A DNA stretch of 64,000 nt, from NCBI GenBank assembly GCA_905116865.2, contig CAJHNH020006680.1:129789-193788 (forward strand), given 5' to 3'. This document shows positions 1,676 through 54,100 of the stretch, in pieces (position 1 is the first letter of the stretch; every line of letters starts with the position of its first letter). Origin of the DNA: Candidula unifasciata. Lineage: Eukaryota > Mollusca > Gastropoda > Stylommatophora > Geomitridae. The position numbers and the translations under genes are program-made. The notes beneath the pieces are model-generated. The model did no database searches, was not told the DNA's origin, and saw only the letters and a program-made list of their open reading frames with translations.

Positions 1676-1901
1676 CTCCATATCCTCCAATGTGTAGCGG
1701 GTAGCATTCTGTGTGAAGGAATGTTTGAATATGAGTGCCACGAGTATATCCGGATCGTCAAGACTCTCGATGTACGCCGATGTTCTCATCACTGTGCTCA
1801 CAGCATAGGCTCGAAAGTTGGCGTTATCTGCCAGCTCGCTGATTTCGCAGTTTTTCAAATCATCGTAACAAGACAGTAACTCTGGGTGCTTCGTGAACAC
1901 T
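1676..1901 (-). CDS. Left globin, exon 2 (haem-pocket exon)
   Basis: 226 bp, exactly the length of exon 2 in the two other globins. The acceptor is CAG just above 1901; the donor GTGAGG follows 1676. It encodes VFTKHPELL (helix C, myoglobin-like), FRAYA at the E7 region and LEDME at the end. A (TA)n tract begins only 16 bp upstream of the acceptor, so the usual polypyrimidine tract is missing. Confidence 0.85.
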
Positions 1902-1912
1902 CTGGTTACATT

Positions 1913-2003
<91 letters not shown>

Positions 2004-4793
2004 AGGCAACTTTTTTTTTTGCATTTTGAATATATTTCTAGCATCTATCCAACCCCACACACTACACACAAACACCACACACAAACACACACACACACAC
2101 ACAGATACTTTTAAAAAACAGAAACCAAGTTATCAGATAGTGCGATGTTTTATAACTTGACGGGAAAGATCGTACGCCTAAAAACTATGACCCAAATTTC
2201 AAAAGAACTGTCACATGATTGGTTGAAACCGAAGTATTCTTGTATATCGTTTCAAAAATTTCACTCATTAAATTTCAAAGACTTTGAATGTCACAGTTAA
2301 GATAAAATTATATTCCTTTCAGTAGCTATGCGTTTCTGCTTTCCTTACTTTTCAAAATGATATATGTCTATACACATATATTGTGTGTGTGTGTGTGTGT
2401 GTATTCATTTCCAAACACATCTTCACATCATGGAGAACCTAACCAAAGAACACCGACTTTCCGAAATGTCTGATGGGATTCTATCCGCCATGCACGCAGA
2501 GTGCCTGACTATGTTTTTTCTCAGCGTACTTTGCAAGTCTGTTCCAATCACAACATGTGTGTGCAGCTCTAGCCAGCGAAATGCTGCAGTGACTGTCCCC
2601 GCTTCAAGGGCAAGTAATAACAGAACACTCATGCTAAACTAATTGCCGATACCATTGGAACAAAAATCTTCCACAATTCAGCAGAAGACGTCAACACCAA
2701 GATTAATAATCAATACTCATAGTTTAACCATCCAGTATTGAATGCAAAACTAACCCCACAACACTTATTTAAAACTAACCACACAACAGTTATTTAAAAC
2801 TAACCACACAACACTCATTTAAAACTAACCACACAACACTTATTTAAAACTAACCACACAACACTTATTTAAAACTAAGCACACAACACTCATTTGAAAC
2901 TAACCACACAATACTCATTTAAAACTAACCACACAACACTTATTTAAAACTAACCACACAACACTCATTTTAAACCAACCACACAACACTCATTTTAAAC
3001 TAACCACACAAGACTTATTTAAAACTAACCACACAACACTTATTTTTAACTAACCACACAACACTTATTTAAAACTAACCACACAACACTTATTTTAAAC
3101 TAACCACACAACACGTATTTAAAATTAACCACGCAACACTTATTTTAAACCAACCACACAACACTCATTTTAAACTAACCACACAAGACTTATTTAAAAC
3201 TAACCACACAACACTTATTTTTAACTAACCACTCAACACTTATTTAAAACTAACCACACAACACTTATTTTAAACTAACCACACAACACTTATTTAAAAT
3301 TAACCACGCAACACTCATTTTAAACCAACAACACAACACTCATTTTAAACTAACCACACAAGACTTATTTAAAACTAACCACACAACACTTATTTTAAAC
3401 TAACCACACAACACTTATTTAAAACTAACCACACAACACTTATTTTAAACTAACCACACAACACTTATTTTAAACTAACCACACAACACTTATTTAAAAC
3501 TAACCATACAACACTTATTTTAAACTAACCACACAACACTTATTTAAAACTAACCACACAACACTCATTTTAAACTAACCATAATATAATTGATAGGAAT
3601 AAAGGGGGAAATGACTGCAGAAAATCTGAAAGCACAGCCTCAAAAGAAGCACATTGAATACTTGCGATGCCAAAAACAGTCCTGAAATCCCATGCTTTAA
3701 TTGTAGAGGTCTTTTCTTAAAGCGGACGAGTCTTGCTAGTCGCACTCGCCATCGCCAGGGGCTCTGATACTCACGCCTCCCAATAAGTCAGTAGGACACT
3801 GGACGGGCGTAAAGGTGCAAAACAAAAACAACAACAATAACAACAGCGACACGTATTATCTCCTAATGCAAAATATATTGTTACTTTTCCTTTTAAAAAA
3901 AAATAGCCACCGACACACACAAAAATGCTGAAGTTGGTTATACAACCCCCTGTAATGGATACGCAACTAACTTTTAGGCAGTTTCTGCAGGTAAAACACA
4001 CAGAAACAAAATCATACAAAAACGGCATTTACTGCTTCTTTCTTTTTTTCTTTTTTAACCGCCTTTAAGGGCAGCGTAAACCAGGGCGCCACGAACTGTG
4101 CAGGCTAGGATGTATATTTTAACATTTAAACAGCATATACGTGTCCGGCTTAGCTTGCATGCGATGCTAATGAAACATTTAAACAGTATATACTTCCCGG
4201 TTTAGCTTGCATGAGACGCCATTGTAACTTTTAAACAGTATATACTTGCCTGGCTTGGCTTGCATGAGACGCTATTGTAACATTCAAACAGTATATATTT
4301 GACCAGAAGCTTGCATGAGACTATCGCTATTCTAACATTTAAACAAAACGTATGCCCAGGTTAGCTAATACAAGAAGATTTTTTTTTTTAAACATTTACA
4401 CCAGTGTTTCCCAATTTTTCTAAGTCGCGGCGCTTTTTTTTTTTTTTTTTTTCTATAGCGCCCTAACCTAAGTAAAGGTATAACTATTCGTGTGTTAAAG
4501 ATGAAACAAAAAACTTGTGTATCTTTAATATTTCGCGGCGCTCCTGTTAAGAGGTCGCGACTTCCCGGGGCGCTGCGGTGCACAGTTTGAGAATGACTGA
4601 TTTAGACAATACTTATGACCTACTTGATTAGCAGTTTTCCTCCTGTCTCTTTAATTGGCGCCCTATGCAGTAAACTATACCACGATCGCCTCAACAATAT
4701 TTTTTGCCGCTGCGTCAACCCAGTTACTGGATCGGGTGTCGGATCTTCTGGTATATCAGGTTCTTTATTTCTTTTGCCACAAATTGCTCCCAT
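1676..4793 (-). CDS. Globin with N-terminal MGxxC motif and replaced haem ligands (left paralogue; exons 1 and 2 of probably 3)
   Basis: Two exons joined by a 2.7-kb intron encode the first 132 residues of a globin. Exon 1 (4793-4624) starts MGAIC, carries a PTPDP..GLT linker and the A-helix Trp38, and ends in phase 2. Exon 2 (1901-1676) holds helices C to F: Pro at C2, Tyr69 at CD1, Tyr89 at the distal E7 position and Gln121 at the proximal F8 position. It ends in phase 0 before GTGAGG. The start matches the myristoylation consensus (Gly2, small residue at 6), with Cys5 a palmitoylation candidate and a basic KR after it. Splice positions equal those of the two other globins. Exon 3 is not visible and would lie below position 1. 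Loss of both haem-ligand histidines in otherwise open exons is unusual; His117, four residues before F8, is the only nearby histidine. Family closest in style: globin X/neuroglobin-like, an inference. Confidence 0.85.
1918..2000. repeat. (TA)n microsatellite beside a globin splice acceptor
   Basis: About 83 bp of uninterrupted TA dinucleotides inside intron 1 of the left globin, ending 17 bp from the exon 2 boundary on the upstream (minus-strand) side. Predicted peptides made of IY repeats are artefacts of this tract. Confidence 0.95.
2050..2405. repeat. (CA)n and (GT)n short tracts with intron sequence between
   Basis: CA-rich repeat at about 2055-2102 and a (GT)n run at about 2383-2402. 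The sequence between is AT-rich intron without recognisable features. Confidence 0.7.
2755..3585. repeat. Minisatellite, 25-27 bp unit, about 30 copies
   Basis: Tandem units of the type AACTAACCACACAACACTTA plus a short T/A stretch repeat from about 2755 to 3585. Variants (CTCATTT, AGACTTATTT, ACGCAACAC) recur in the same order, which suggests higher-order duplication of blocks. It lies in intron 1 of the left globin. Confidence 0.95.
3700..3990 (+). pseudogene. LINE C-terminal fragment and SINE-like tail
   Basis: At about 3705-3765 the plus strand reads a degenerate CysGly..Leu..Ser-Arg-x-Arg finger like the LINE tail at 12360-12445. At about 3925-3975 the segment around GGATACGCAACTAAC matches the 3' tail of the SINE at 32398-32628. 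Between them are A-rich simple repeats. These are probably two separate, old insertions. Confidence 0.45.
4120..4345. repeat. 53-bp tandem repeat, about 4-5 copies
   Basis: Units start with AACATTTAAACAGTATATAC at about 4121, 4174, 4226, 4279 and 4334, spaced 52-55 bp, each followed by TTAGCTTGCATGAGACG-like sequence. Located in intron 1 of the left globin, close to exon 1. Confidence 0.9.
4402..4599. mobile_element. hAT-type MITE with 8-bp target-site duplication
   Basis: The element starts CAGTGTTTCCCAA and ends TTTGAGAATGACTG, imperfect terminal inverted repeats typical of hAT elements. GCGGCGC and GCGCCC blocks lie inside both ends. It is flanked by ATTTACAC (4394-4401) and ATTTAGAC (4600-4607), a 7/8 match with the 8-bp duplication expected for hAT. 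There is no transposase frame, so it is non-autonomous. It sits about 17 bp from the exon 1 donor of the left globin. Confidence 0.8.
4624..4793 (-). CDS. Left globin, exon 1
   Basis: 170 bp, 56 codons plus two bases. ATG at 4793-4791, followed by G at +4. The donor is GTAGGT at 4623-4618. The peptide has MGAIC, then a proline-rich linker and an A-helix with LLRRSWYSLL. The split codon joins to exon 2 as Lys57. Confidence 0.85.
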
Positions 4794-6084: not shown

Positions 6085-6700
6085 GCAAGCCTTTCCGTTA
6101 GTTTTGGTGTGTGGTCTTCTCTTGCGTGAATCAGTGACTGCCATCTCCTGGGCATGGATGCAATCAGACGTCTGATGTAGGCCTATGGAATGGCTGCCCA
6201 CTCTTCCTGGAGTGCCTGGAACAGATCACGACCATTAGCTGGAACAACGTTTCGGTGACAAACACGTCTTTGCAGCTCATCCAACAGGTGCTCAATCGGA
6301 CTCACGTCTACAGACAAGGATGGCCAGTGAAGAGTTTGAAGGTTATTGGTAGCCAGGATCTGCGTGGTCAGCTGTGCAGAATGGGGTCTGGCGTGGTCCT
6401 ACTAGAAGATATATCCGCTGGCATCCCAAAATAGAAGGATATTTGGGTGAAGAATTTAATGGACGTATCGTTGCGCACTCAAGCTTCCTTCAGTGTGTAC
6501 CTAATGATTCCTTCCGTTGAAACTGATCATTTCCCACCTCGAACTAAACCAGTGGCTTGGAACAGGTGCCAAAGTCGACTGATGGTACTCTGATGCACGT
6601 TTAGATGCCTGGCAACCTGAATTTCAATTTCTCGACCAGTAGCGAAATTCCCTAAATGTGTCGATAGAGGCGCCATTCATGATTGCTTGAAAATGAAGTA
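6085..6700 (-). pseudogene. Tc1/mariner transposase relic
   Basis: On the minus strand an N-terminal helix-turn-helix piece (VARHLNVHQSTISRLW, about 6535-6625) is followed, after a rearranged middle, by a C-terminal piece (about 6320-6085). The latter carries the catalytic-acidic block DVSPIEHLLDEL and then LIASMPRRWQSLIHA..H. These match the Tc1 clade order: DNA binding, then DDE catalysis. Stops interrupt both parts and the central catalytic residues are not readable, so it is inactive. I could not define terminal repeats. Confidence is high for the family, low for the boundaries. Confidence 0.8.
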
Positions 6701-15611: not shown

Positions 15612-15769
15612 ATGGGGAATCTGTGCAAGGCATCGGAATCGGATTTATCTTCTGTGGCCGATCCTATTTCCGGTTTGAAGCCAAGGGAAATAGAACTAAT
15701 TAAAGAATTATGGATACACGTTTATGGTCAAGTGAATTTCACGGAAATAGGAGTGTTGTTTTTCTTAAA
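15612..15769 (+). CDS. Middle globin, exon 1
   Basis: 158 bp, 52 codons plus two bases, donor GTAAGG at 15770. It encodes MGNLCKASES, a short linker with DPISGLKPRE, and helices A-B ending FFLK. An in-frame upstream ATG at 15579 could add 11 residues but has poor context and would hide Gly2. Confidence 0.88.
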
Positions 15770-18700
15770 GTAAGGACATTTGGTTTTTAGCTGTTAGAAA
15801 GTTGATTGAGTCTAATAATTGTAAGTAAAGTAGGTACAACCCGTTCGGGTGTCTTATGCATATTGAACTAGACTATATTTTATGGACCAATCGGCACTCA
15901 GTGGGTGATGTGGTCAGCATCACGTCGGCCGCCTTTACTTTACAGGACTATACCTGGAACCCACACAAGGCTGGGTCGTTCCTAGAATCCAAGGTCATTT
16001 TGAAAAAAAAGTATGGCTATGTCTGGACCCGAACCCACGACCTTCCGATTCTCAGGAAAGCGTCTAGCCACTACACCACGTCAGCTCTTATAATGATATA
16101 TTAGTCGGATTTTATTTCAACTTAGTTCATTGCTTGACTGATTGGTGAACATGTCTGGGAGGCGGAGGAGGGGGGGGGGGGGGGTTCCCCCTTTGTGGCC
16201 ACGTGATCAAGCTGTTGGTCTGGCGTTCTGAAGGTCCTGAGCTCCATTCATCCCGGTGGCTCGTCATTTGATGGAGAAAGGACTGCTGGTTTCACAAAAT
16301 AGGGAAACCCATTTCGGACTTTTTATCAGTGTTCTTCTAGGACTTTTTATGAAATCTGAGAGTCACACCCAGGAAGTATTTTATCACTTTCGTTTCAACT
16401 GCTGATGATGCTTTGTTTTTATGTGCATGTTGTGTGTGTGTGTGTGTGTGTGGTGTGTGTTTTTAAAAGATGTATGTGTGCGCACATGTCGTATAAAGCG
16501 ACTAAATAAGGGTTCGTGAGATATAGGATGTGTTGGGTTGAGGCGTAGATATCGCAGCCTAGCTGTAAACCAGAATAGAATTGCAAACAGTCCAATTAAT
16601 TTTCAGGGCAAAATAAAAAGAAGGAAATAAAGACACAATTTGACTTGTAAGCTTGGCGAAGTTCAATAATTAAATTAGCATACACAGATACAACCAAACG
16701 TTTCGAACAGAGATTTTATCAAAGTTTCGTTAACTTTAGTTGATATGTTTTGTAGTAAATGTGAGTTTTTATTACTATTTTATTTTTTTTTATTTTTATT
16801 TTTTTTTGACTTTATATTTGTCAACTATTTTTTTTTTCCAGAATTTTTCCCAGTCAAATTTGTATTTAGTAAATTCTTTTGAAAAAAAAAATTGTTGGGG
16901 TGTGTAATTTCTAATTGTTTGAATCTTTAATCATAATGCTGACGTTACCTCACTTCTTGGTGTATATTTTCCAACAAGAAATTTACTTAATGTTTTTTTT
17001 TTTTAGTGTTATACGACTTTTTAGTCCTTTTTTCTTAGTTTTATGGGCGCAGTTTCATGACTATGCTTTGATATGTTCTGTTCAACTGCAAGCAATTTAG
17101 CAGCAGACCACTTTGAATGATTTGGACAACGTCAGTAAGCAAATATTTCCGCTCAGAAAACAACGGCAAATTAGTAAACTTTTAAATTAACACCCAACAA
17201 AACTACAAACAGGCAACAAATGATTGAGTTCGTTTGCGACGCCCATAGCCTTTGGATTTGTTTGCTACAGATGGGCCGCCGTCAACCCCCCACCGGACGA
17301 CCCCTCCCCCCGCGACGCCCCCCCCCCCCCCACCACCCCCACCCCCCTCCCGAAACAAGCAATTAGCTTTCGTATGAAGCATGTATGTTTCCGTTGAGAT
17401 GTTCATGAAGAGAGAGAATAGGAAAGTCACAAGATGCCAAGTCGCCCCCCCACCCCCCCCTCCCCCCTCCCCCCTCGAAGTTGATGCTCGACTGAACAAA
17501 GTTGAGACGCGTGTTTGTCTACTAGTGTATGGACGAGCATCGTCCTGTTGAGGTAAACAATGATTTCTACACCGTTTCTACATAGCGATCGGAGTTGACC
17601 GTATTGCCGTGGTTTGAACATTCTGCGTGGATTACGCCCTACGCTTAAGGTAACTTGCAAGAAGACAGAAAGTGCGGTAATCACTAAGATGAAAGAATTA
17701 CAAAACTTTGAGATACACGCAAATGGCAAAAATCTTAAACATGTGAATCAATACAACTATCTTGGAATAGTAGAATCAGCTGAAGCAAAATGCCTTGTAA
17801 AAATTAGAACAAGACTACCTTTGGCAAAAAAATGTCTTCGTTAAAATGAAAAAGCTACTCACCAGTAACAGTTCCATCACTCCGATTATCAGCACGTCAC
17901 ATGATGATAATGAAGATTGGCCTGTTGGTTATTGATAAGTATGAGCCTCTCATGTATAAAGTTTCCTGGTATTCGAAGAGTTAACAGTGAAACAGTGATT
18001 CTTTCGCTTCTCACTAGGCTGTTCCATAAGCATCTATATATGAAAGCTTATTTCCCGAAGTTCGCAAACGTTAAGGCATGTGATTTAGAGCACTACCCGC
18101 CTTTCCGAGCACACGCTACCACAGTGTTTGCAGAAATATCCAAATATGTTTACAGCGTTGAAGACTCAGATACTCTTGTTGGTTTGATTAGTAAACGGAC
18201 CAAAGGACACTTCATCTTCGGAGTTACAGCCAGAGATATGGAGGTAAGACCTTGTGGTTGGATCAGGGAAGTATGGCAGGTTGTTGATGTGGACTAAATA
18301 TTTTATTGTTTGCCTTGAGAAAATAAAATAGACTACATGTTACATTGTGGTTCATTTGTAGATAATGAAGTAGACTACTTGTTATATTGTGGCTCACTTG
18401 GGGATAATAAAGTAGACTATATGTTACATTGTGGTACATTTGTGGAAAATGAAGTAGACTACATGTTATATTGTGACTCACCTAGGGATAATCGAGTAGA
18501 CTACATTTTATATTATTGCTTACCCGGGGGTAATATAGTAAACTACATGTTATATTATGACTCACTGGAGGATATTAGACTTACTGTTATATTGTGGCTC
18601 ACTTGGGGATATTGATGTTTATTAAATGTTATTTTGTGGCTCAGCTGGGGATAATGAAGCAGATTTAATGTTAAATTGTGGCTCACTTTGGGATAATGAA

Positions 18701-21013
18701 GTAGACTACATGTTATATTACGGCTCACTTGGAGATAATAAAACAGATTAAATGTTATATTGTGGCTCATATGTGGATAATGAAGCAGACTACTTATTTT
18801 AACATTGCGGCTCACGTGGAGACAATGAAGCAGATTAAATGTTATATTGTGGCTCACATGTGGATAATGAAGTAGACTACATGTTATATTCTGGCTCAAC
18901 TTGGGATAATGAAGCAGATTAATTGTTATATTGTGGCTCACTTGGGGACAATGAAGTAGGGTAAATGTTATATTGTGGCTCACTTGTGGATAGTGGAGTA
19001 GACTACATGTTATATTGTGGCTCACTTTAGGGATAATGAAGCAGATTAAGTGTTATATTTTACTCCTCGGGTATAATGAAGTAGACGGACACCATGCTTT
19101 GAGACCTTCCACCACACCTCCCCCCCCCCCCCCCCCCCCACCCCCCCTAAACTTCCGGTATACTACTACAGAGTTTATATCAATTAATAAATTAGCACAA
19201 CACGTAAATACGTTTAACTGACAAACACAAATCCTACATGAATGTGAAAATTAGAAAGTGTTCACATTATACTCATTATTTTTTGTTATCAATCTAAAAT
19301 TACATTATTCAAATTCGTAATTGGAAAATATTTTGTTAATTAATTAAGGACACAAACGTGGAATTACTGTTATTTTATGGACGTTTTTTTTAACGCTGTT
19401 TAACAATAAGGCTATGCAATTAATGTTACATTCTAGACAATTTATTAAATAATGATAGTATTTATAAATTGTATTTAGGCCTTTTAAAAATAATTCGGTA
19501 TCTGGTTATCATTTTTTTAGGGATATTTCTGACATTTGTTGTGATAATGATGTATGGCATTAGGTTCTGATTTATCTGCAAAATAATATTTAGACTAAAT
19601 GTTATATTATGGCTTTCCGTGGGATAATGAACTAAAGTAAATATTATATTCTGGTTTATTTAAGCATATTGAAGTCATTTATTTTACGTCACCTTTTCAC
19701 TCGGTTACACTTCTGCATCACCGTTCGTTTGCAATCAAATTGTGAAATTTTTTACTTCATTTATTTAAACTGTATTGAAGCATTGAAACTTTACTGAATA
19801 CACCACAGATTTTACGAAACCTGCACCTTCAGGGTCCTAATGGAGCAAAGATCTTAAATACAAGATGAAACTTTTATAATGAAAAGGGCAATAAAGATAT
19901 TGCTTTTTTAAAACTACTATTTATTATTTAGCCGGTCTTAGAATATTGCCACCTCAAATGTTTGCCGGTCTGTGCAGCTGCACATATTCCACATCGCCTA
20001 CATATAACCTTGATGATGATGACGTAGAATATCTAGTGTATCCTAAAAAAAGAATCTAATGATCTTGATAAATTCTACATGTAAAGTAATGGTCTTTTTA
20101 ATTGTCATGATATAATAATGGCCCGTGTTGTAAATAATAACATTCACAACAAAAGACAAAAGACAAATCGAAACAACAGAAAGGAAATGTATACGGCGAA
20201 TCCTGAACGTAAATAGAAGACAGGATCATAAATTAGGATATCAGGAAAGACGTTATAACGGAATCAGTATTATACTACATCAACAGACAACAGATTGAAT
20301 TGAATAGTTTGCAAAAGTGTCATGACTACACCAGACAGTGCACCACAGAGAGGCCTCTAACTTAGACATGATGGAAGCAGAACCAGCGGTCAGCCACGCC
20401 AGCAATGGAGTTGCCCTGTCAAAAGTTATTATTATACGTTGGAAAATTTACTGACCTGTTTTATTCTTTGATGAGGACTTTGATTGAAACTTTGGACTGG
20501 TCAGTTTAGTCTGGTGAGGTTCCTAATAATAGCTTGTCTGCCTGTTTCTGCCTTTATTATACCACTTTTGTCGTGTAGGCAAGGGGGGGTCTTTGAGCCT
20601 GAGGGTTTACGGCCACATGGCTAGCTAGTGTTGTCGCCACGACTATGCAGGTGAAGATTTGTTTTTGCCCCCGACAGAAAAAATCCCTAGGTTTACCGAG
20701 GATTCGAACTCGGGTGTCCCGCTTGAGAGCCCAGCGTCCTAACCGTTCGGTTAGTCGCTCGTCAGTAATAGCTTGTGGTGTCTTATAATTTGTTTGTCGT
20801 TTAATGTTTCAGAATATGAAGGAGGTCATTTTGGAGTTTCTGGCAGAGAGAGGGGAGGGCATGAATGAGCTGGATGAGGCCGTGGCTGCCTGGGAAAAGT
20901 TTTTGAATTTCCACAATATAATTTTTCATAATAGTACCAACGAATTTGTCAGGACAAGCAGAAATTCCATTGAGGTACTAATTTGTCTTTTTTTTTTAGT
21001 ATCATTCTCATAG
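15612..21013 (+). CDS. Globin with N-terminal MGxxC motif (middle paralogue), three exons
   Basis: Exons 15612-15769, 18018-18243 and 20813-21013 join to about 194 residues. The globin fold is clear: A-helix Trp34, Phe65 at CD1, FRAHA with distal His85 (E7), GHFIFGV with proximal His117 (F8), and a G/H-helix block AAWEKFLNFHNIIF. Pro at C2 is replaced by Leu. Expected role: haem-based oxygen binding, redox or signalling. The start at 15612 is preferred over ATG 15579 because it has A at -3 and G at +4 and gives MGNLC, the start shared with the two other globins. Lys6 makes it a weaker myristoylation site than theirs. Introns are phase 2 (B12.2) and phase 0 (G7.0). The last exon may end at the stop at 21011-21013, or be spliced at GAG|GTACTA (20975), which would remove a hydrophobic tail. 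A possible AATAAA lies at 21436. Globin X-like affinity is an inference. Confidence 0.9.
15835..16087 (-). mobile_element. SINE-1, tRNA-derived, near full length
   Basis: The minus strand begins with a tRNA-like head: TGGTGTAGTGGCTAGACGC resembles a pol III A box and GGTCGTGGGTTCGGGTCC a B box. The body shared with the copies at 41195, 50376 and 62332 follows (..GACCTTG.., CCCAGCCTTG, CCTGTAAAGTAAAGGCGGCC, ..GATTGGTCCATAAAAT..). It lies in intron 1 of the middle globin about 66 bp after exon 1. Confidence 0.85.
16090..17260. other. Intron sequence with G run, (GT)n and T/A-rich tracts
   Basis: G run at about 16169-16185 and (GT)n at about 16431-16462. A block at 16198-16320 (GGCCACGTGATCAAGC.., GTCCTGAGCTCC) may be a further tRNA-like SINE head but is too diverged to call. 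The rest is AT-rich. Confidence 0.4.
17275..17480. repeat. C-rich low-complexity tracts
   Basis: Two C-rich stretches (about 17286-17350 and 17443-17475) in intron 1 of the middle globin. The glycine-rich minus-strand frames over them are artefacts. Confidence 0.85.
17640..17990 (+). pseudogene. LINE ORF2 relic in globin intron 1
   Basis: Plus strand reads KKTESAVITKM.., then VNQYNYLGIV and IRTRLPLAKK, the K-T-..-YLG..D..I..RI..AK region after LINE reverse transcriptases. The segment then decays. It ends just before exon 2 of the middle globin, in the same orientation as the gene. Confidence 0.65.
18018..18243 (+). CDS. Middle globin, exon 2 (haem-pocket exon)
   Basis: 226 bp between the acceptor CTCACTAG (to 18017) and the donor GTAAGA (18244). 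It carries helices C-F with CD1 Phe, E7 His and F8 His. A 42-bp minisatellite begins about 60 bp downstream of the donor. Confidence 0.92.
18300..19085. repeat. Minisatellite, 42-bp unit, about 18 copies
   Basis: Units of GGATAATGAAGTAGACTACA followed by TGTTATATTGTGGCTCACTT recur every 42 bp (for example at 18361, 18403 and 18445) from about 18310 to 19085. Because 42 is a multiple of three, both strands show 14-residue peptide repeats that mimic proteins. It lies in intron 2 of the middle globin. Confidence 0.95.
19100..20155. other. Intron 2 sequence, no feature beyond a C run
   Basis: C run at about 19119-19147. Otherwise AT-rich. One or two diverged units of the 42-bp repeat (TTATATTATGGCTTTCCGTG, about 19600) lie downstream of the main array. 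Confidence 0.5.
20160..20420 (+). pseudogene. LINE ORF2 relic in globin intron 2
   Basis: Plus strand, with frame shifts, gives RKCIRRILNVNRRQDHK and a MMEAEPAVSHAS-like end, the same order as the relic at 11590-12165 on the other strand. Decayed, 5' truncated. Confidence 0.55.
20538..20765 (-). mobile_element. SINE-2, tRNA-derived, with 11-bp target-site duplication
   Basis: The minus strand starts with a tRNA-like head: GCGACTAACCGAACGGTTAG gives A-box-like sequence and GAGTTCGAATCCTCGG an intact B box. The flanking duplication TAATAGCTTGT is perfect (20527-20537 and 20766-20776). It is a different family from SINE-1. It lies in intron 2 of the middle globin, 36 bp from the exon 3 acceptor counting the duplication. 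Confidence 0.88.
20813..21013 (+). CDS. Middle globin, exon 3
   Basis: The acceptor TTAATGTTTCAG ends at 20812. Helices G and H follow (NMKEVILEFLAER.., AAWEKFLNFHNIIF). After the H helix come STNEFVRTSRNSIE and a hydrophobic VLICLFFLVSFS to the stop. An alternative donor at 20975 is possible. A SINE with its duplication ends 36 bp before the acceptor. Confidence 0.85.
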   Translation, partial: NMKEVILEFLAERGEGMNELDEAVAAWEKFLNFHNIIFHNSTNEFVRTSRNSIEVLICLFFLVSFS

Positions 21014-21446: not shown

Positions 21447-21601
21447 AAACCGACTTACAAGGTAGAAATCGTGGATGGGTCGTGCGAAGGATGCCATACA
21501 GCAGATTTGTCGCTAAATGAATGGGTGCATTTGCCAACTGCTTAAAACAACAATGACAAAAACGACAATGACTCTATTTTCTTCTATCTGGCTCTCGCCA
21601 T

Positions 21602-22266
21602 TGCACGATTCCTATTTCACACACCGACATCAAACGACGAGCAGAAAATGGACGACTGGAAAACAACACGACACTGTTTCTGCACTTTATTCTTCCAATC
21701 GCGGCTTCCTCAGCCGGCACATGAAATAGACTACTGTCCAAGGATACATTGTAACTCAAAATACATCACTTTACCTTTTAGCCGAAATCACAATCGTCCT
21801 ACCACAAGCATAATTAACGAAAACACAACAGCTGTCTCGACGGAAAGCTATCACGTCCGGCAGACATCTTGTCTGCTCGCTCCGTTTGCCAAGTTGAACG
21901 TAGGAACAACACTCACTCTCAAAACACATGTTGGATCCACACACCTTCCGCCGTTGTCTATGCACTCCGTTCCTGGGCCCAAACAAGACTGACCACCAGC
22001 CCTTTCTAAGGTATTATATAACCTTCTAATGCCCCTCTTCGTACTCCCGAATTCTCCGTGTTCCCTGGTTTACACGCATTCTATTCGACCAGCACTTTCT
22101 ATGTGATCCCCGTGAATTTCACCTGGGCAGCAATTCTTTGTGATTGTCATGATAGTTCGTCTGGTCAGTATTTCTCGTGTTACACTTAAAATATTCCACT
22201 TTCATTATTTACTGACGTCATTCCGTCTAGGCATAATTTATCTAGGAGAAAATGAGGCTTACTACA
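21602..22266 (-). repeat. 3' LTR of the minus-strand retrotransposon
   Basis: 665 bp, closely similar to 28811-29473 along its whole length with scattered substitutions and small indels. Contains a conserved AGGCATAATTTATCTAGGAG block near the TG end. Confidence 0.88.
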
Positions 22267-22289: not shown

Positions 22290-24170
22290 TTTACATTTTC
22301 AATCAAAATAGGTGTGATCATTATATTTATGTGTTCTTTAAATATGATAATGTTAGACCTTTGTAGTGAATCACTTTCGACAAATTCATTTCTAACCAAG
22401 TTCCCTTTTTTCCATTGGGTTTACAAATCAAACAATTCAAAATGTTATATGTTAGGTCTTTCAATTATTGTGAATAGCTTAATGGGATCCACACTTCAGG
22501 CACTCCCCGTTTAGTGCGGAAGACCAATAATCTGGCTCCATAGGTATCCCCACCCAGTTCTAAAGTCGGTATACAACCGAACTTCTCTCCAGGCACCCCC
22601 CGTTGGTGCGGAAGTCCAAAATCTTGGCTCTAAAACTAAAGTGTGACCCCATGAAGTCCCACCCTCGCTATTCGCATTCATAAAAGCCCCCAACAATGAC
22701 AAAATCAGCAATGTATGGTCATGTTCCCAAATATGTAAGGTACAAGATTTAGTTAATTACCTTGTCTTCAGAAACTACATGTCTCAACATACATATTCAA
22801 ATTCAATGTTACATAAATTAAATTTAGTACACCAATAAATGTTCAAATATTTTCTGGTGAGGTGTATTTTCAACCCGAATATTGTCTCCGTTTAATTTTA
22901 ATCGCTGACTCTAATTTAACTGATTAAACCCACACACAAAAATTTATAAGCTGTAAATTCACCAAGCACATTCATTCCATAACACATTAATATAATATGT
23001 CGACAACCTTGCATAAAATAAAAATATCAATTTACACATAAGTTGTATCAGTAGTTGTAAAATATTCTATAAATGTGACATGATATATGGTAAGCAACTG
23101 TTCTTTTTATGTGTTCAATGTTAAATTTGAACTGTGATATTCACAATGACCATATATATACCATTGGATTACTATTAGCATTAATTGTTAATTTTGTTAA
23201 TCCCAAGTTATCTGTCAGAATGGTGAATTCTTTTCCCAAAAAACTTCTGAAATTTTTCAAAGTAATAACTAGTGCTAATGCTTCTCGTTCAAATGAGTTG
23301 TATGTTTGTTGCGTTTTGTTAAGTTTTTTTTTTCTTTACATATATTACGTGGCTTTGTATCAACAAGTACATCTGCATTTTATAACAAAATATCTATCTA
23401 ACAAATTCACTTAAAAAATTCAAAACAAAATTCAATTTTGATTTCATACACCTAATATTGTCTTGTAATTTTACATGAATCTAACCATTTTATATTATGT
23501 TCGTGGGATTTTGAATTTGATTGTGGCAATAAACATTTGTAACCACCGAATGTGGAAAGTGTTTAGCATACATCATTTGTAAAAGTATTAGTTTCAGCAA
23601 CAACAGTGTCAGTAGTGTAGCACTTCTAAGAATTTGACAAGTTTTTGTAGTAACAAACAGTTGGGAGTTGTAGCAGTATTTGTAAATAGTCACAAAGAGT
23701 TGTAGGATCTGGATACTTAGGATAGCATAGAATGATTCTAGATTGAATGTTTGGCATGTTATCAAAAGAATTTGCCACATGGTAAGTAAGATGTATTGTA
23801 TCAGCCAAATGCACTCATGTATACAGTATGATAATTTTTTTCTGATGTTTCTCGCCTTTGTTGTGGTCCACTTTTAATAAAATACAATTTTCTTTAAGTT
23901 TTCCATTATCTGCAACTGTTATTGTTAATCTGTTATTTCTTCTATCACTCTTCATCAACATCTCACTTTTATTCAGTATGGATGGTGTGCTTTTATCACA
24001 CAATGCATTGTCATTCATATCTTTTGCATTCAGAACTTCTTTCATATCTTTATCCTTACACTCTGTGTTCTTATTCTCTTCATGCTCATTCTTTTCTGTA
24101 CTGACACTATCACTCACTCTTGCATGACTGATTGACTGCTTCCTGTTTTTGGAAGAATCAATTTCGTTCT
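22290..24170 (-). other. AT-rich internal region of the LTR element, no pol
   Basis: Where pol should follow gag-protease there are only short frames without RT, RNase H or integrase motifs. A frame at 24117-23815 is rich in Lys, Glu and Asn and may continue the region after the protease, but it has no recognisable domain. Confidence 0.55.
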
Positions 24171-24171
24171 C

Positions 24172-25642
24172 TTATATTCTTGAATTCACACTATGGCAAA
24201 GATCGTGATGACTGGTAATCATGTTCTCACTTACTGCTGCATTCACACTATGGCAAAACTCTTGATCACTGGTAATTGTCTTCTCATTTTCTTTCAATTC
24301 TTTTATGTTTTCTCTTTCCCACTGAAAAATGTCTTGCTCAGACATTTCTTTCAGACCTTTTTCATTCCCCAAAATTAATCCTGCACATGGTGATGGCAAC
24401 ACTGCAACTCTTATTCTTCTTTATAAAAATGGAGTGTTAACATTGACAAAGGCTACTTTATATTTCTCAATGGTGCCTACAAATGTTTGGCAACTAATAT
24501 ATTTGTTAATAATATCTTTCGGTTTGATAAGATCTTTGTGAATACCTGAAATGTTAGAGCCAGAATCTCTTAAAACAGAAATTGTCTTGTTGTTAACAAT
24601 ACCATGATACACCTTAAGTGTTCTCTGAGAGATGATAACAGAATTTGCTTCATGTACCAATATTTTATGTCCACAGGGTAGATTATCTTTCTCATGAAAT
24701 AAGTGGCAAGTTTGACATGTTTCACAACTTTCAAATTTTACTGCGTTGGTATCAAATGGTTCACTGTCTAAATCAGAATCGGACATTTCCTGTCCTATGT
24801 TGGCTTCTTTAAACTTTTTCCTTAATAAACAATCCCGTTTAAAATGATTATAATAGCCACAGTTAAAACATTTAATATCATCTTTATATAGTTTTAACTT
24901 CTGTGTTCTTCTATCAACTAGTTTTTCTATATAGTTCTCTTAGGCTAGATTTATGTCACACATTTTGTCTTTTGGATGAGATTTTTGACAATAATTGCAG
25001 TACACATGTTGCCACTTTTTGTTGAACGTGGTTTTGTTTCTGTATGGCGTTGCACCTTGGTTGTATCTGCCTCTGTCGTAACTGGCACTAGCTCCAGTTT
25101 CAATGTCTGGTACAGGGCTGGAAATGAAGATTTCACGATGGGCTGAAAAATAATTTTCACCTAAGTTTTATAATTCCTTCATTGAGGTTGATTTGTTTTC
25201 TCTTAAGAATGTTGACATTGGTTTAAGCAAAGATTCTAACATTTTATTCCTTATTTTACCAACAATTTATAGTTATCCTTAACATTGGCCTAATCAATCC
25301 ATTTGTCAAAAATATTCTGAACTTCCGAAAGATAATCCGTGAACGTCTGATCAGACTTTGGCTTTAGATCAAGAAATTTTTTCCTATACCCTGCTTCATA
25401 GTGTCGCATGATGCGATCTTTAATATAGTCATAGTCTAAGATGTTCAGGGACTGTTTCTAAGATCTTTAATGGTTTAAATGTTAAGTGTTTTTGAAATAT
25501 AATGGCCCACTGGTCTTTTTGGAACTTCATGAAAGCGCATTTGCAAAAGGAAACTAGATATATAACTTCCAATGTTATCTTTCTTCGAGAAATTTATGAC
25601 TATACCTGCACACTTTTTGAATTTATTTTCTTTTTCTCTTAA

Positions 25643-26049: not shown

Positions 26050-28810
26050 ATGTCTTTACAATGTAAACAACAGTGAAATTACAATTCCTTACTTTCAAAT
26101 TACACACCCTCAAAAAGCAATATAAGTTCAATATAATGAACTAGTAACTTGAATCAATAACTAAAATGTCTCTTGGGTATCAACAGTATACCTTAAAATA
26201 TAGTGGATGTAACTTTTGTTTAACCACAAAACTATAACTAAATGATTCTATATATATACAAATGGAGTCTAAGAAGAAGACTATATGTGTTAAACAGTAT
26301 AAGTTTGGCCTATGGAAGAGTAAATCAGTTAAGCACACTTGAGAATTTAGATATGTGAGCCAGAAAAGAGATATATTATTTGATAAAGATTATTGATCAA
26401 GTTGTAATAGACTGTTGTAGCAACTAGAATAGATGCAGTGGATTATCAATGCATTTTATAATATAATTGATGAAATATTATATAAATGTTAATGATTAAA
26501 TATTTCAAAATATGCAACATGCGTAGCACAGTAGTTGGTTATGAAGTTTAGAATTTGACGACTACGCCTTGCAAAACATTTTTGATTAAAAAAATTGTCT
26601 TTATTATTAATGACTGCGTATAATTAATGACTTGAGTATAATTAAATAGTTTTTTAAATAAAATAAATTATTTTAAATTATGTCAATTGTTTGAAAAAAT
26701 ACTTGATTCACTTTGCCTCGTCGGCTATGGCAGAATAATCACCAATAAGTAACAACTTCAAATAATTAAATAATTTCACTTAATAGGTAGTACTGACAGG
26801 TAATAAATAAAATTATTCAATGTGATGCTTATAGGATGGTACTGTTTTAAATTAAGTTAACAGTATGTGTAGTATCGATGTTTCTTGGATACTGTCCGTT
26901 TGTTTACAACATTCACTTTCAATGAAAAAAAAAATCAGTTACAATGTATATGATGTCAAACTGCAACACGCGAGTTCACTGGATGGTGAAAAAAATAATT
27001 CCTATACACCAATAAATGTAGTCAATACTAGCAGTCAACAAAAACAATATTCAATATAAACTAAATAAAGATATAGTGTTCAATCAATGAATGTACTAAC
27101 AACTAATAACACAATGACCTTTCACCAAATTAATTATTAAATCACCAATGATTAAATTATTATTGTCCTAGTATTGAAAAAGCAAAATTCCTATTAACCA
27201 CGGCTGTACCTTTGTTATAGTGACTACAACTGATGATGTTGAATTGTGGATAAGATAAATCAAATGTGACAAAATATGAAATTTAATTTTAGATTAAATT
27301 CTTTTACACTTTATAATGATGTTTATGTGATATTATGTTTAAGTAAATAATTAATAATTGTTATTTTGTTCGTGGATACAGAGGGAACTTACTATTAATT
27401 ATTTCGGACACTAGATAGTAGTTCAAGTAATATTTTGGTATGATTAATTATGGCACTCGATGATGATGATATTTAAATTTTGTGTCCTATGATAATACCC
27501 ACTATTCTTGGAGTACTATAATAAAAAAAGAACAAACTATTTTTAATTTAATTTGTAATTATTCATGTAAAAAAATTATGTAAATAATAGTAAAATATTG
27601 CACAATAATAATAAATGCACTAATGTAATAATATTTTAAGTAAATAAATTAACTGTCAATGGCTGCGGTAATGAAAAAATATATAAAACAAATAGTAATA
27701 TATTGATAATAATAATGAATGAATATGTATAAGCTTATGTATAAGATGACTTGCCTTCTTGACGGTTGTTCAGATGAAACTTGTCAGTGTAAACTTCTAC
27801 TGCTACTTTTAAAAGATTATATGAGAAATAATGTTTGCTGGACTTAATTTTGACCGCACATTTTAACTGTACACAGTAGAAATTATTGCATCAAATGAAT
27901 ACTGAACACGGAGATGTTCAGTGAAATACTTATTGCACAAACTGGATATTGTTCCTAGTAATGTTCAGTCTAGTAATGATTGCACAAACTGGATATTGTT
28001 CCTAGTAATGTTCAGTCTAATAATGATTGCACAAACTGGATACTGTTCATGGCACTGTTCAATGTATGTGCTTTTAGTTTCTGTTGTGCACTATGATAAT
28101 AGTATACTATGGCTAGTTCAATGCTAAACTGTATACACTTAAATGATTTTTTTTAACATTTGAATTAACACAGTCTTTTTAAATTGTTCTCCTGTTGACC
28201 GATTGTGTTTAGGTCGTTGGAATGCTTTATTATTATCGCATTCTTGTGTGTCGGAACGATTATTATACGATGATCTTGAGGTATCTATGAGTGTTGCTCT
28301 TGAGATATCAATGGGTGTTGATCTTGAAATATCAATGAGTGTTGAGGTATCGTAGGCTTCTCATACTGTAGTTGTCTACAGAATGTTTTGCCACGTTTGT
28401 TACTGCTCAGCTGTGACACACATACCCAGTGCCAGAGCTTGCTCTCCTTTATCTAGATTTCAGTTCAACACACTACCCTGTGTTGTAACTGTCTTTATAT
28501 TTTTTGAAAGCAGATCCGACTGGAAGGATCTGGTGTCGACACTTGTGTTGCTTGGTGCAGATAACCCACTGCACTTCACCATACTGTAGTCGGCAACAAA
28601 TTTCGAATAATCAACAGGGTTTCAGAACTGTTTTAGAGGGACAGCCTTAGTCTCACGTTATCCATGGGTAGACTTACAATTAATATTCCTCTGCTACCAA
28701 AGATTACGGCTCCTGCCACTGTCAATATTTCTGTTGCTTTCTGTTTTTAAGTTGCCGAAAACTTGAATCGTGGACTTTTCTATATCAGCATTCGTAGCTT
28801 GGAATTTGTT
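26050..28810. other. Long AT-rich leader of the LTR element
   Basis: About 2.7 kb of very AT-rich sequence with no coding motif lies between the 5' LTR and gag. It includes a three-copy 47-bp repeat (27930-28060) and a short repeat near 28255-28345 (TTGAGATATCAATG.. type). Such long leaders are known in non-autonomous LTR elements. Confidence 0.5.
27930..28060. repeat. 47-bp tandem repeat, about 3 copies
   Basis: TGCACAAACTGGATATTGTT followed by CCTAGTAATGTTCAGTCTA repeats at about 27935, 27982 and 28029. Confidence 0.85.
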
Positions 28811-29473
28811 TGAACGATTCATATTGCACACACCAAAATCAAACGACGAACAGAAAATGGACGACTGGAAAACAACACGAGACTGTTTCTGCATTTTATT
28901 CTTCCACTCGCGGCTTCCTCAGCCGGCACATGAAATAGACTACTGTCCAAGCATACATTGTAACTCAAAATACATCACTTTTACTTTTAGCCGAAATTAC
29001 AATCGTCCTACCACAAGCATAATGAACGAAAACACAACAGCTGTCCTGGCGGAAAACTATCACGGCCGGCAGACATCTTGTCTGCTCGCTCCGTTTGCCA
29101 AGTTGAACGTAGGAACGACACTCACTCGCAAACACATGTTGGATCCACACACCTTCCACCGTTGTCCATGCACTCCGTTCCTGGGACCAAACAAGACTGA
29201 CCACCAGCCCTTTCTAAAGCATTATATAACGTTCTAATGCCCCGATCGTACTCCTGAATTCTCCGTGTTCCCTGATTTACACGCATTCTATTTGGCCAGC
29301 ACTTTCTATGTGATCCCCGTGAATTTCACCTGGGCATCAATTCTTTGTGATTTTCATGATAGTTCGTCTGTTCAGCATTTCTCGTGTTACACTTTAAATA
29401 TTCCACTTTCATTAATTACTGACGTCATTCCGTCTAGGCATAATTTATCTAGGAGAAAATGAGGCTCACTACA
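28811..29473 (-). repeat. 5' LTR of the minus-strand retrotransposon
   Basis: 663 bp partner of 21602-22266. On the minus strand it begins TGTAGTGAGCC at 29473 and ends GAATCGTTCA at 28811. Confidence 0.86.
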
Positions 29474-51100: not shown

Positions 51101-54100
51101 AGGCCACGTGAACAAATCCCAGTCTTCACCGGGACCTCTGGCATTCAAGGCAGACACCATGCCTCGACACCACTCAGCTGCCAGATGTAACCTCCTGTGG
51201 ACAGTTATGGTTATTCGCTCACTTCTTTAGTCTTGTACAGATTTGGAATTTTTCGTGCACGTAACTAATTCATTTGTTTACAGACAGTGAGTTCCTCGTC
51301 TCTCAAACAGATACACTCGGGAAAAAACGTCGACCCATCTTCGCTGGCCTGGCTCCCGGCTGAGAATTTGGTTCTAGGATGATCGCAGAGTGGTGATATA
51401 TAGCGCGTTTTTTCAATTCCTGTCGTTGTTTTTAGGATAACTTTTCGGTAATTATTTAGCATGGGAACGTGATGTTTTGTATGTGCTATTTTCAACTCGA
51501 CGTTAATGTTTTATATAGCGCGTTATTTTTTTTTTTTTTAAATTCGAGTCGTTCTTTTTTTTTTTTTTTTTTTTTTGATATTTTTGTTTCTTTTGGAAAA
51601 TGACTTAGCATTGGAACGTGATGTTTTGTATTTGCTATATTTAAATCGGCGTTAATTTTTTTTTTTTTTTTTTAATTCGAGTCGTTCTTTTTTTTTTTTT
51701 TTTTCGATATTTTTTTTTTCTTTTGGAAAATGACTTAGCATTGGAACGTGATATTTTGTATTTGCTATATTTAAATCGGCGTTAATGCATAAATAATTTT
51801 GAGACCTTGAAATTGTATCGAAACAGACGTTTTATATGTTATTTTCATCACTTGTATAATTTTAGTTTGATAACAAAAGAACTTTTACGATAATAACGTG
51901 AATGACCCTTACCCTAAACACAACAATAACCCCTTTACAGCTTCCCACGAACTTGGAAATATCCAGCACACTTATTTTGTAGCCTGTTGTCATACTTTTA
52001 GCGCAGTTGTTTTATCTCATCGATTTATGTTTCCCCACAGCTGAAATATAATTTCTTTTCACATCGGCACCAATTTGTAAACACACTATAGGTCTTGACT
52101 AGTTAGTATCTTGTTGCATCACGAGGAGAAGTTCGGTATCCAGCCAGCCAAACAAAAAAGCACACTGCTTCTTCATTTCAGGACGCCCAAAATCACTCAC
52201 AACATTTTATGTTGTGTTGTTTTAATAAACAATTGTATGTTTAATTGATTTTTGTTTTCTTATAGATAAGCTCTAATAACACTGTCAATGTCGACGCAAA
52301 AGAGAGCATGCAGCCGACCACGACCTCCGTTCTGCACAGCACAGCTAACGAAACAGAAACGGGACAAATAATCGCCTTCTTACCTCCATTTCTTCAACTG
52401 TCACCCCGTATCTGCTATGTGATGTAGCTAGCTTCTTGATAAGAGATTCAATAGTAAAGGGGTCGTCTAAACACTCGATATAGGCGGTCATTCCGAACAT
52501 AACACCAATCCCGTGAGCGCGCAGACCAATGCACTCAGCGCCCCGGATGTCTTTGTTCAACAAGCAGAATGGATAGTATTCAATCATCAACGGAAATTTT
52601 TCTTGCAGTCTGTAAAGACGACGACTGCATTTACCACTGTGTGCGTTATGTCGTGTCAGAATACAAAACCTTGACTCTGTTTACGTGCCAATAGCTTCAG
52701 GCGATTTGGCAGCAAACCCCGTTGCGTTTTTGTTTTTTTAACACTGGTATCACGAGCTGATAGTTTAAAAAAAAAAATTTTTTTTAAGTAAGTAAAGGAC
52801 CCTTTTCCCCGCCTTTATGTGTATAGGGCAAATAGGTCTATACCTAAATTTGTATAGACCAATAGGCACAAGATGGTTAAAAATATATTTACGCACTTAA
52901 ACACTGCTTAAGCCACCTTAAATCTCCCTCCCAAGATAAAAATTTGTAAATTGTTGAGCACCCCTCACGCTCCCCCTTTTTCTCTACCACCGCCACAATG
53001 TTTTCTTTGTGTGTCCATAGTGTAATGACAGTCACTGCAAACGTGTGCAGCTTGAAAATTCCACGTACATTAAAACGTCGACTGACCGTCAGTTTCTGTT
53101 ATCACTAATCGTCCAAAAAAAAAAACACTTATAATGTCCGAATTTCAACAAACAAACATACTCAAACATCTTTAAAACTGTCTACGAATTTTACACTCTT
53201 ATGTATACAGCCGGAAGTGAGTGTACCGACTGAAATGCAAGAGGAGGTAAATGCAACACGAATCCTGGTTGTGCGTAAGATACGAAACATCGCCGCGCAT
53301 AAGGCTGTAGCCTCAAAGACACAGATCGAGACGGTATATTATTTTAAAATAAGGAAGATTATAGTATTACAATATATTTGTCTAGATTACAACTAGTATG
53401 TTGAAGTTCATATTGATCGTTTTGTAAAATTTAATATAATATGTGTGTACTAATTACTTTAAAATGATTGTTTTTTTTTTTTTTTTTTTATTTCGTCGCA
53501 AGCCTGCAGTGAACCCTTGTTATTGTGCATATGTATGAAGAGATTTCTGTTATCCATCTGCTCAGTTATTCGTCACAGACCTGGTCTGGGTGGTGACGGT
53601 TAATCGAAGTTTTGCTCTATTTATTTCTTAGTGACGTGGGGTGGTCAGTGCCTTTCCTCGTTGGCTTTACATCATACCCCTGACAAGCAATGAAACCCCT
53701 TTCACGCCGGTAGCATATCAGGCACATAATTCTAGGCTTGCATTTTTAATAAACAAAAGGGGCGGAAAGGGGGTGGGCATTCAATGGGTTATGTGGTCTA
53801 CATCACGCCAGCCACTTTCATTTCCCAGGACATTTCCTTACTCCTAATTTAAACCTGTTGATGTGGTAGCCAAGTGTTCAACATCATTAATCATCAACGG
53901 CCTAATCGACAAACAAGAGGGCGGAAAGATGCTTCCTCGGAATCTCCGACCTTAAACAGCAAGGATGAGTTCTTGTGCCGACACACCTCCATGCTACTGC
54001 AAAAGTTTGTAAAGAACTTTCTCGCATTTCCTTCCTCTGTCTCTTTTTCCACAGGTCTTTCCAATGGTCACATTATGCTCCAGTTCGCTTCTCCTCTTAA

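Follow-up and report, generated by a model that had tools for sequence, protein, structure and literature searches.

The left globin gene and its relatives

The window analysed here is the whole of a 64,000-nucleotide (64-kb) stretch of the Candidula unifasciata genome (contig CAJHNH020006680.1, positions 129,789 to 193,788). Three globin genes, designated left, middle, and right, were located across this window by tblastn with exon peptides and by their splice contexts. This report concerns the left gene, which encodes Tyr and Gln at E7 and F8, the two positions occupied by the haem-ligand histidines in its neighbours. The features of the left gene are as follows, with helical positions taken from the alignment register described in the next section.

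4624..4793, minus strand: exon 1 (codons 1-56 and two bases of codon 57), with the MGAIC motif and helices A and B
1676..1901, minus strand: exon 2 (final base of codon 57 and codons 58-132), from the end of helix B to the start of helix G
1865..1867, minus strand: codon 69, TAC, Tyr at CD1 (common to the left gene, the right gene, and the protein P0001 introduced below)
1805..1807, minus strand: codon 89, TAT, Tyr at E7
1721..1723, minus strand: codon 117, CAT, His at F4
1709..1711, minus strand: codon 121, CAG, Gln at F8
1694..1696, minus strand: codon 126, TAC, Tyr at FG5 (Val or Ile in the other globins of our comparison panel that cover FG5)
1919..2000, unstranded: (TA)41 repeat directly upstream of the exon 2 acceptor

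Exon 1 opens with ATGGGAGCAA (MGAIC...), and its 3' end, ..ATCAA followed by GTAGGT, is a phase 2 donor of the B12.2 type. Exon 2 begins after ..AACCAG with A GTG TTC and closes with ATGGAG, followed by the phase 0 donor GTGAGG. When joined, the two exons comprise 396 bases, or 132 codons with zero stops, and neither contains a frameshift or a lost splice site. The first-pass annotation had described these exons as open, with splice sites in place and the N-terminal MGAIC motif retained, and this description was upheld in each respect: the GT donors and the acceptor context are present, the intron phases are 2 and 0, and both Gly2 and Cys5 of the motif are kept. Two tandem arrays lie near the left globin exons, one of a 25-base unit in intron 1 (33.4 copies, 2746-3581) and the other of a 53-base unit (4.3 copies, 4115-4345).

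The exons of the two neighbouring genes were defined as follows.

15612..15769, plus strand: middle globin exon 1 (MGNLC), with a phase-2 donor
18018..18243, plus strand: middle globin exon 2, with His at E7 and F8, Phe at CD1, and Arg at F4
20813..20974, plus strand: middle globin exon 3 (helices G and H, AAWEKF); all three exons together score 61.9 bits with PF00042
55802..55956, minus strand: right globin exon 1 (MGNIC), with a phase-2 donor
52384..52609, minus strand: right globin exon 2, with His at E7 and F8, Tyr at CD1, and Leu at F4

Intron placement is identical in all three genes, with a phase-2 intron in helix B (B12.2) and, where helix G starts, a phase-0 donor that lies approximately one residue before the textbook G7.0 position by our count. 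An origin of the left gene as an intronless retrocopy was ruled out, because the phase-2 intron is retained. A third intron at E10.2, which is typical of globin X (GbX; PMC7457136), is absent from the left gene, whose exon 2 runs continuously from helix B to helix G. All three window globins start with MGxxC, and the exon 1 peptides of the left and right genes share 51% identity (tblastn).

The nearest solved structure to the left peptide by sequence is the nerve hemoglobin 8oup (E 6.8e-12 over residues 20-118). The match to Pfam PF00042 (E 8.3e-4, 20.3 bits) falls slightly below the cut-off of 22, which is also missed by the two-exon right gene (18.8) and by P0001 (18.4). Judged by these sequence matches, the left gene is an animal globin by descent. 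P0001, a hypothetical protein of 135 residues from the land snail Bradybaena similaris with 62% identity to the right gene, was the sole database relative recovered. The left peptide alone as a homologue query yielded 3 candidates, none of which reached E <= 0.001, and queries with the three-gene and four-sequence alignments returned P0001 only (of 980 candidates, one reached E <= 0.001, and of 2628, one reached E <= 10). In the tree, six of the nine inner branches were left open and the left and middle rows were unplaced; the nearest paralogue was thus not settled by the tree.

Ligand positions and the haem pocket

In an ungapped alignment, E7 and F8 correspond to Tyr89 and Gln121 in the left gene and to His at both positions in the middle gene, the right gene, and P0001. 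Because exon 2 consists of 75 whole codons in all three globins, this register requires no gaps, and a MAFFT alignment that included eight outside globins agreed with it. The F8 assignment therefore relies on the constant length of exon 2 together with the pairwise and MAFFT alignments, residues 119-132 not having been placed by the profile hidden Markov model (HMM) aligner. The loss of both ligand histidines relative to the neighbouring globins, as originally proposed for this gene, was confirmed by these alignments and by codons 89 (TAT) and 121 (CAG).

Under an alternative register, His117 would be the structural F8 residue, a placement mentioned in the first-pass annotation, and the left protein would be an ordinary haem globin that has been misaligned. 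This histidine does lie one helical turn from the assigned F8, in front of the residues that the profile-HMM aligner left unplaced. However, the alternative would need four residues to be deleted ahead of F8 and four to be inserted behind it within an exon of constant length in three genes, and forcing His117 onto F8 costs 7, 12, 14, and 16 BLOSUM62 units against the right gene, P0001, the middle gene, and 8oup, respectively, compared with the ungapped alignment. Moreover, other haem contacts are altered too, as described below. The cost of the forced register therefore places His117 at F4, where it aligns with Leu89 of sperm whale myoglobin and where the right gene and P0001 have Leu and the middle gene has Arg. 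We regard misalignment as highly improbable. An AlphaFold2 model of left exon 2 (pLDDT 58) has a helix over residues 107-123 that finishes right after Gln121, with low local confidence, and lends the assigned register weak support; the corresponding value for P0001 was pLDDT 45.5, and both models were of too low quality for a fold search.

The replacement of Phe by Tyr at CD1 had been listed as a further peculiarity of the left gene. The residue is indeed present (Tyr69), but it was rejected as a special mark of this gene, because Tyr also occupies CD1 in the right gene and P0001, and among the window globins Phe is found in the middle gene only. The same residue has been documented at CD1 in the amphioxus globin BflGb3 (PMC3087553) and in one Caenorhabditis elegans globin (PMC2228317).

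To the comparison of the ligand positions we added that of the pocket, using a panel of 12 globins that consists of the left gene and 11 globins with F8 His, namely, eight established haem proteins (four taken from PDB alignments and four vertebrate sequences that we take to be correct) and the middle gene, the right gene, and P0001. The pocket was represented by 16 positions that we take to be the haem contacts of myoglobin. At 11 of these 16 positions, the left gene has a residue absent from all 11 F8-His globins: Cys at C7, Leu at CD4, Tyr at E7, Ser at E10, Thr at E11, Thr at E15, His at F4, Thr at F7, Gln at F8, Thr at FG3, and Tyr at FG5. At the other columns, such residues occur at 17 of 87, the lowest count of the twelve. 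The remaining rows, some of which cover fewer columns, have 1-7 unique contacts and 18-43 unique residues elsewhere. The mean hydropathy at the contacts is -0.77 in the left gene, the sole negative value of the twelve (others, 0.39 to 2.01); its contact positions are thus the most polar of the panel rather than apolar. The left gene also has Leu at B10 and Arg at E14.

This pattern also emerged from scoring against the eight outside haem globins, with CD1, E7, and F8 dropped so that the finding could not prove itself. The left gene scored -0.88 at the 13 remaining contacts versus 0.86 at the 87 other columns, and 1 of 20,000 permutations was as low. No such deficit was found at the contacts of the right gene (0.87 versus 0.43 at the other columns), the middle gene (0.76 versus 0.56), or P0001 (0.59 versus 0.49). 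The permutation fraction for the left gene was 0.0025 with all 16 contacts, 0.0012 without E7 and F8 only, and 0.0013 without five positions; it was 0.00075 with the three invertebrate references only and 0.00125 with a narrower contact set, and it ranged from 0 to 0.0005 when each of the 8 references was dropped in turn (4,000 permutations). In a leave-one-out comparison, the difference between contacts and other columns was -1.79 for the left gene and -0.44 to 0.67 for the 11 F8-His globins. A coarser count, of unique changes with one outgroup, showed the same tendency: the pocket gave 5 versus 0 with all three partners, whereas the counts outside the pocket were 6-8 for the right gene, 6-7 for the middle gene, and 3-11 for P0001 as the partner. 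The haem pocket of the left gene is altered as a whole, and the alteration is wider than the two histidines. As a separate observation, the middle globin keeps both histidines, yet its F4 is Arg and its E14 is Glu, which are odd charges for a haem pocket.

Decay, ferric haem, or a haem-free fold

The left gene might simply be recently dead, through loss of exon 3, splicing, or expression, with exons 1 and 2 unbroken as yet. Exon 3 lies outside the window and the exon 2 acceptor is weak behind (TA)41; furthermore, in a substitution-only simulation on a frame of the left gene's make-up, the probability that the frame stays open was 0.48, 0.22, and 0.05 at 0.05, 0.1, and 0.2 neutral substitutions per site, respectively, so a young pseudogene could remain open. 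On the other hand, this probability falls to approximately 1% at 0.3 substitutions per site, and the splice sites, the start, and the acylation motif are intact. More importantly, the changes cluster in the pocket, and outside it the left gene is the best conserved of the twelve globins, which suggests that constraint on the rest was still in force when the pocket changed. Since neutral decay would hit the core and the pocket alike, a change concentrated in the pocket, with the rest of the sequence kept, tells against long neutral decay. The left lineage also shows no general acceleration, because the exon 2 differences at codon positions 1 and 2 number 71 between the left and middle genes and 70 between the right and middle genes. 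An estimate of dN/dS was dropped because third positions are close to saturation (55 of 75 differ between the left and right genes in exon 2). We consider it unlikely that the left gene is merely a gene in the course of dying.

The expectation that the left protein would not bind haem in the normal way is supported by the loss of both histidines together with the change of the pocket as a set. The loss of haem binding with retention of the fold is the simplest reading of the pocket data, and the left protein likely does something other than carry oxygen. Regarding its location, Gly2 and Cys5 are invariant in all four sequences (left, middle, right, and P0001), and in the left gene basic residues follow the motif, which suggests a membrane anchor shared with the paralogues. 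Acylated globins have been reported across several metazoan clades, including a clade of mollusc and annelid Sp-globins (Sp-gb), and these proteins (globin X, globin X-like, and spiralian Sp-globins) have, like the left gene, Gly2 and a Cys near the N-terminus (PMC7771090). In zebrafish globin X, where the Cys is at position 3 rather than 5 as in the left gene, membrane targeting requires both lipids (PMC3176823). CD1, E7, and F8 are highly conserved in GbX and GbXL (PMC7457136).

On these grounds, we put the probability just above even that the left protein is a membrane-tethered, haem-free globin fold that serves as an interaction or regulatory module. Myristoylation of Gly2 and palmitoylation of Cys5 would hold the protein on the inner face of the membrane, as in globin X. 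With the proximal histidine gone and large polar side chains at the haem site, the cavity would be filled by the protein's own side chains, and the resulting pseudoglobin might act at the membrane, possibly by pairing or competing with its His-bearing paralogues. A more specific version, that selection remodelled the pocket as one unit and that the left protein is a natural animal pseudoglobin, a haem-free module at the membrane beside His-bearing paralogues, is put forward tentatively and at somewhat less than even probability.

Haem might instead be held in the ferric state by Tyr89 at E7, with a possible second ligand in His117 at F4; the protein could then serve as a haem carrier, sensor, or redox protein unable to bind oxygen. 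The presence of Tyr at E7, the absence of His at F8, and the histidine on the proximal side at F4 are consistent with this idea. Hb M Boston, a human variant, offers a partial parallel, as its alpha chain presumably has Tyr at E7 acting as an iron ligand; it differs from the left protein in that the F8 His is present and the pocket is otherwise apolar. The Hb M Boston alpha chains are ferric, and the bond between the proximal His and haem is absent (PMC4526547). However, the left protein has further contacts that are polar or bulky (Thr at E11 and E15, Arg at E14, and Tyr at FG5) and the only negative mean hydropathy of the twelve globins, although Arg at E14 alone is no obstacle to haem, since the Aplysia myoglobin row also has Arg there. 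The first-pass annotation had proposed His117 as a substitute ligand. Its position one turn away, at F4, makes this role possible, but in ideal-helix geometry it would demand a shift of the haem or the helix of approximately 6 Å and is not favoured; Tyr89 at E7 may be a candidate ligand at least as good as His117. Taken together, a ferric haem protein of this kind appears unlikely.

Several points weigh against the reading of the left protein as a haem-free module. The profile-HMM aligner halted at residue 118, with posteriors of about 0.5-0.8. Exon 3, which would encode helices G and H, is outside the window, and the gene is known here from exons 1 and 2. The pyrimidine tract of the acceptor behind (TA)41 is short, and position -3 of the start codon is T. 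The pocket comparison depends on an assumed contact set and a small panel; haem binding by the right gene, the middle gene, and P0001 is assumed from their histidines; and the count of unique changes is borderline (Fisher p 0.045, 0.10, and 0.005 with the three partners). Acylation is predicted from the motif only. The homologue searches recovered no left-gene orthologue, although the search method requires shared exact words and absence is not implied. Trematode myoglobins keep the F8 His. They also have Tyr at E7, and their high oxygen affinity is attained with Tyr at B10 (PMC4057808), so Tyr at E7 alone is no bar to oxygen binding; the left gene differs from them in having Leu at B10 and no His at F8.

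The F8 His is the usual recognition mark of animal globins. It is present in all 33 C. elegans globins (PMC2228317) and all 15 amphioxus globins (PMC3087553) and is invariant in a mollusc globin alignment (PMC9690805), and an arthropod survey of 187 globins names six without it (PMC7457136). Among the matches listed in the open-licence literature, none described a mollusc globin lacking F8 His. The F8 His is replaced in Daphnia HbB, C, E, F, and K, and the ostracod Puriana HbL2 has lost the canonical CD1, E7, and F8 residues altogether (Met, Val, and Val), for which another function was supposed (PMC7457136). These proteins share the loss of F8 His with the left gene, but they are arthropod globins of the HbL type with Tyr or Val at F8, versus Gln here. 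The nerve hemoglobin 8oup, with His at E7 and F8, Phe at CD1, and Leu at F4, is unlike the left gene at all four positions. If the haem-free reading is true, the left protein would be the globin counterpart of a pseudokinase: the globin fold itself would have a job in animal cells, with the haem site dropped and the fold and the anchor kept. Anchor and fold would then be separable from haem chemistry, which would help to make the function of acylated globins testable.

Exon 3 and other sequences in the window

An HMM built from nine exon-3 stretches gave no convincing match for exon 3 of the left and right genes in the window and recovered the middle exon 3, which was in the training set; when the middle exon 3 was left out of training, it was still the top match, but only at E 0.076, and the absence elsewhere is therefore weak evidence. 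For the right globin, no exon 3 was found over the 52 kb downstream (52383 down to 1, minus strand) in this search of low sensitivity. The P0001 gene model ends two residues past the end of exon 2. After exon 3 of the middle globin there is a possible further donor, GAG followed by GTACTA, and perhaps another exon. A stretch at 33062-32904 (minus strand) contains four in-frame stops and resembles the middle exon 3 at 26.6 bits, a score reached by 0 of 200 shuffled queries (maximum, 23.1); with composition correction, the match is 23.1 bits (E 0.02), and the stretch may be a decayed exon 3 or may have arisen by chance.

The window also contains transposon remains at 6183-6398 (minus strand; DDE_3, E 6.4e-4, below the cut-off), 23141-23335 (minus strand; RT_RNaseH, E 5.5e-11), and 24421-24939 (minus strand; CCHC zinc knuckle, E 0.0023, below the cut-off). 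In addition, there are two long open frames approximately 7 kb apart, at 21546-21989 and 28767-29234 (both plus strand). The latter, the sole one of the pair to be scanned, has no Pfam match. The two frames are alike by eye and have DEQKMDDWKTTR and SRLPQPAHEIDYCP in common, and on this resemblance they are likely copies of an unnamed repeat.

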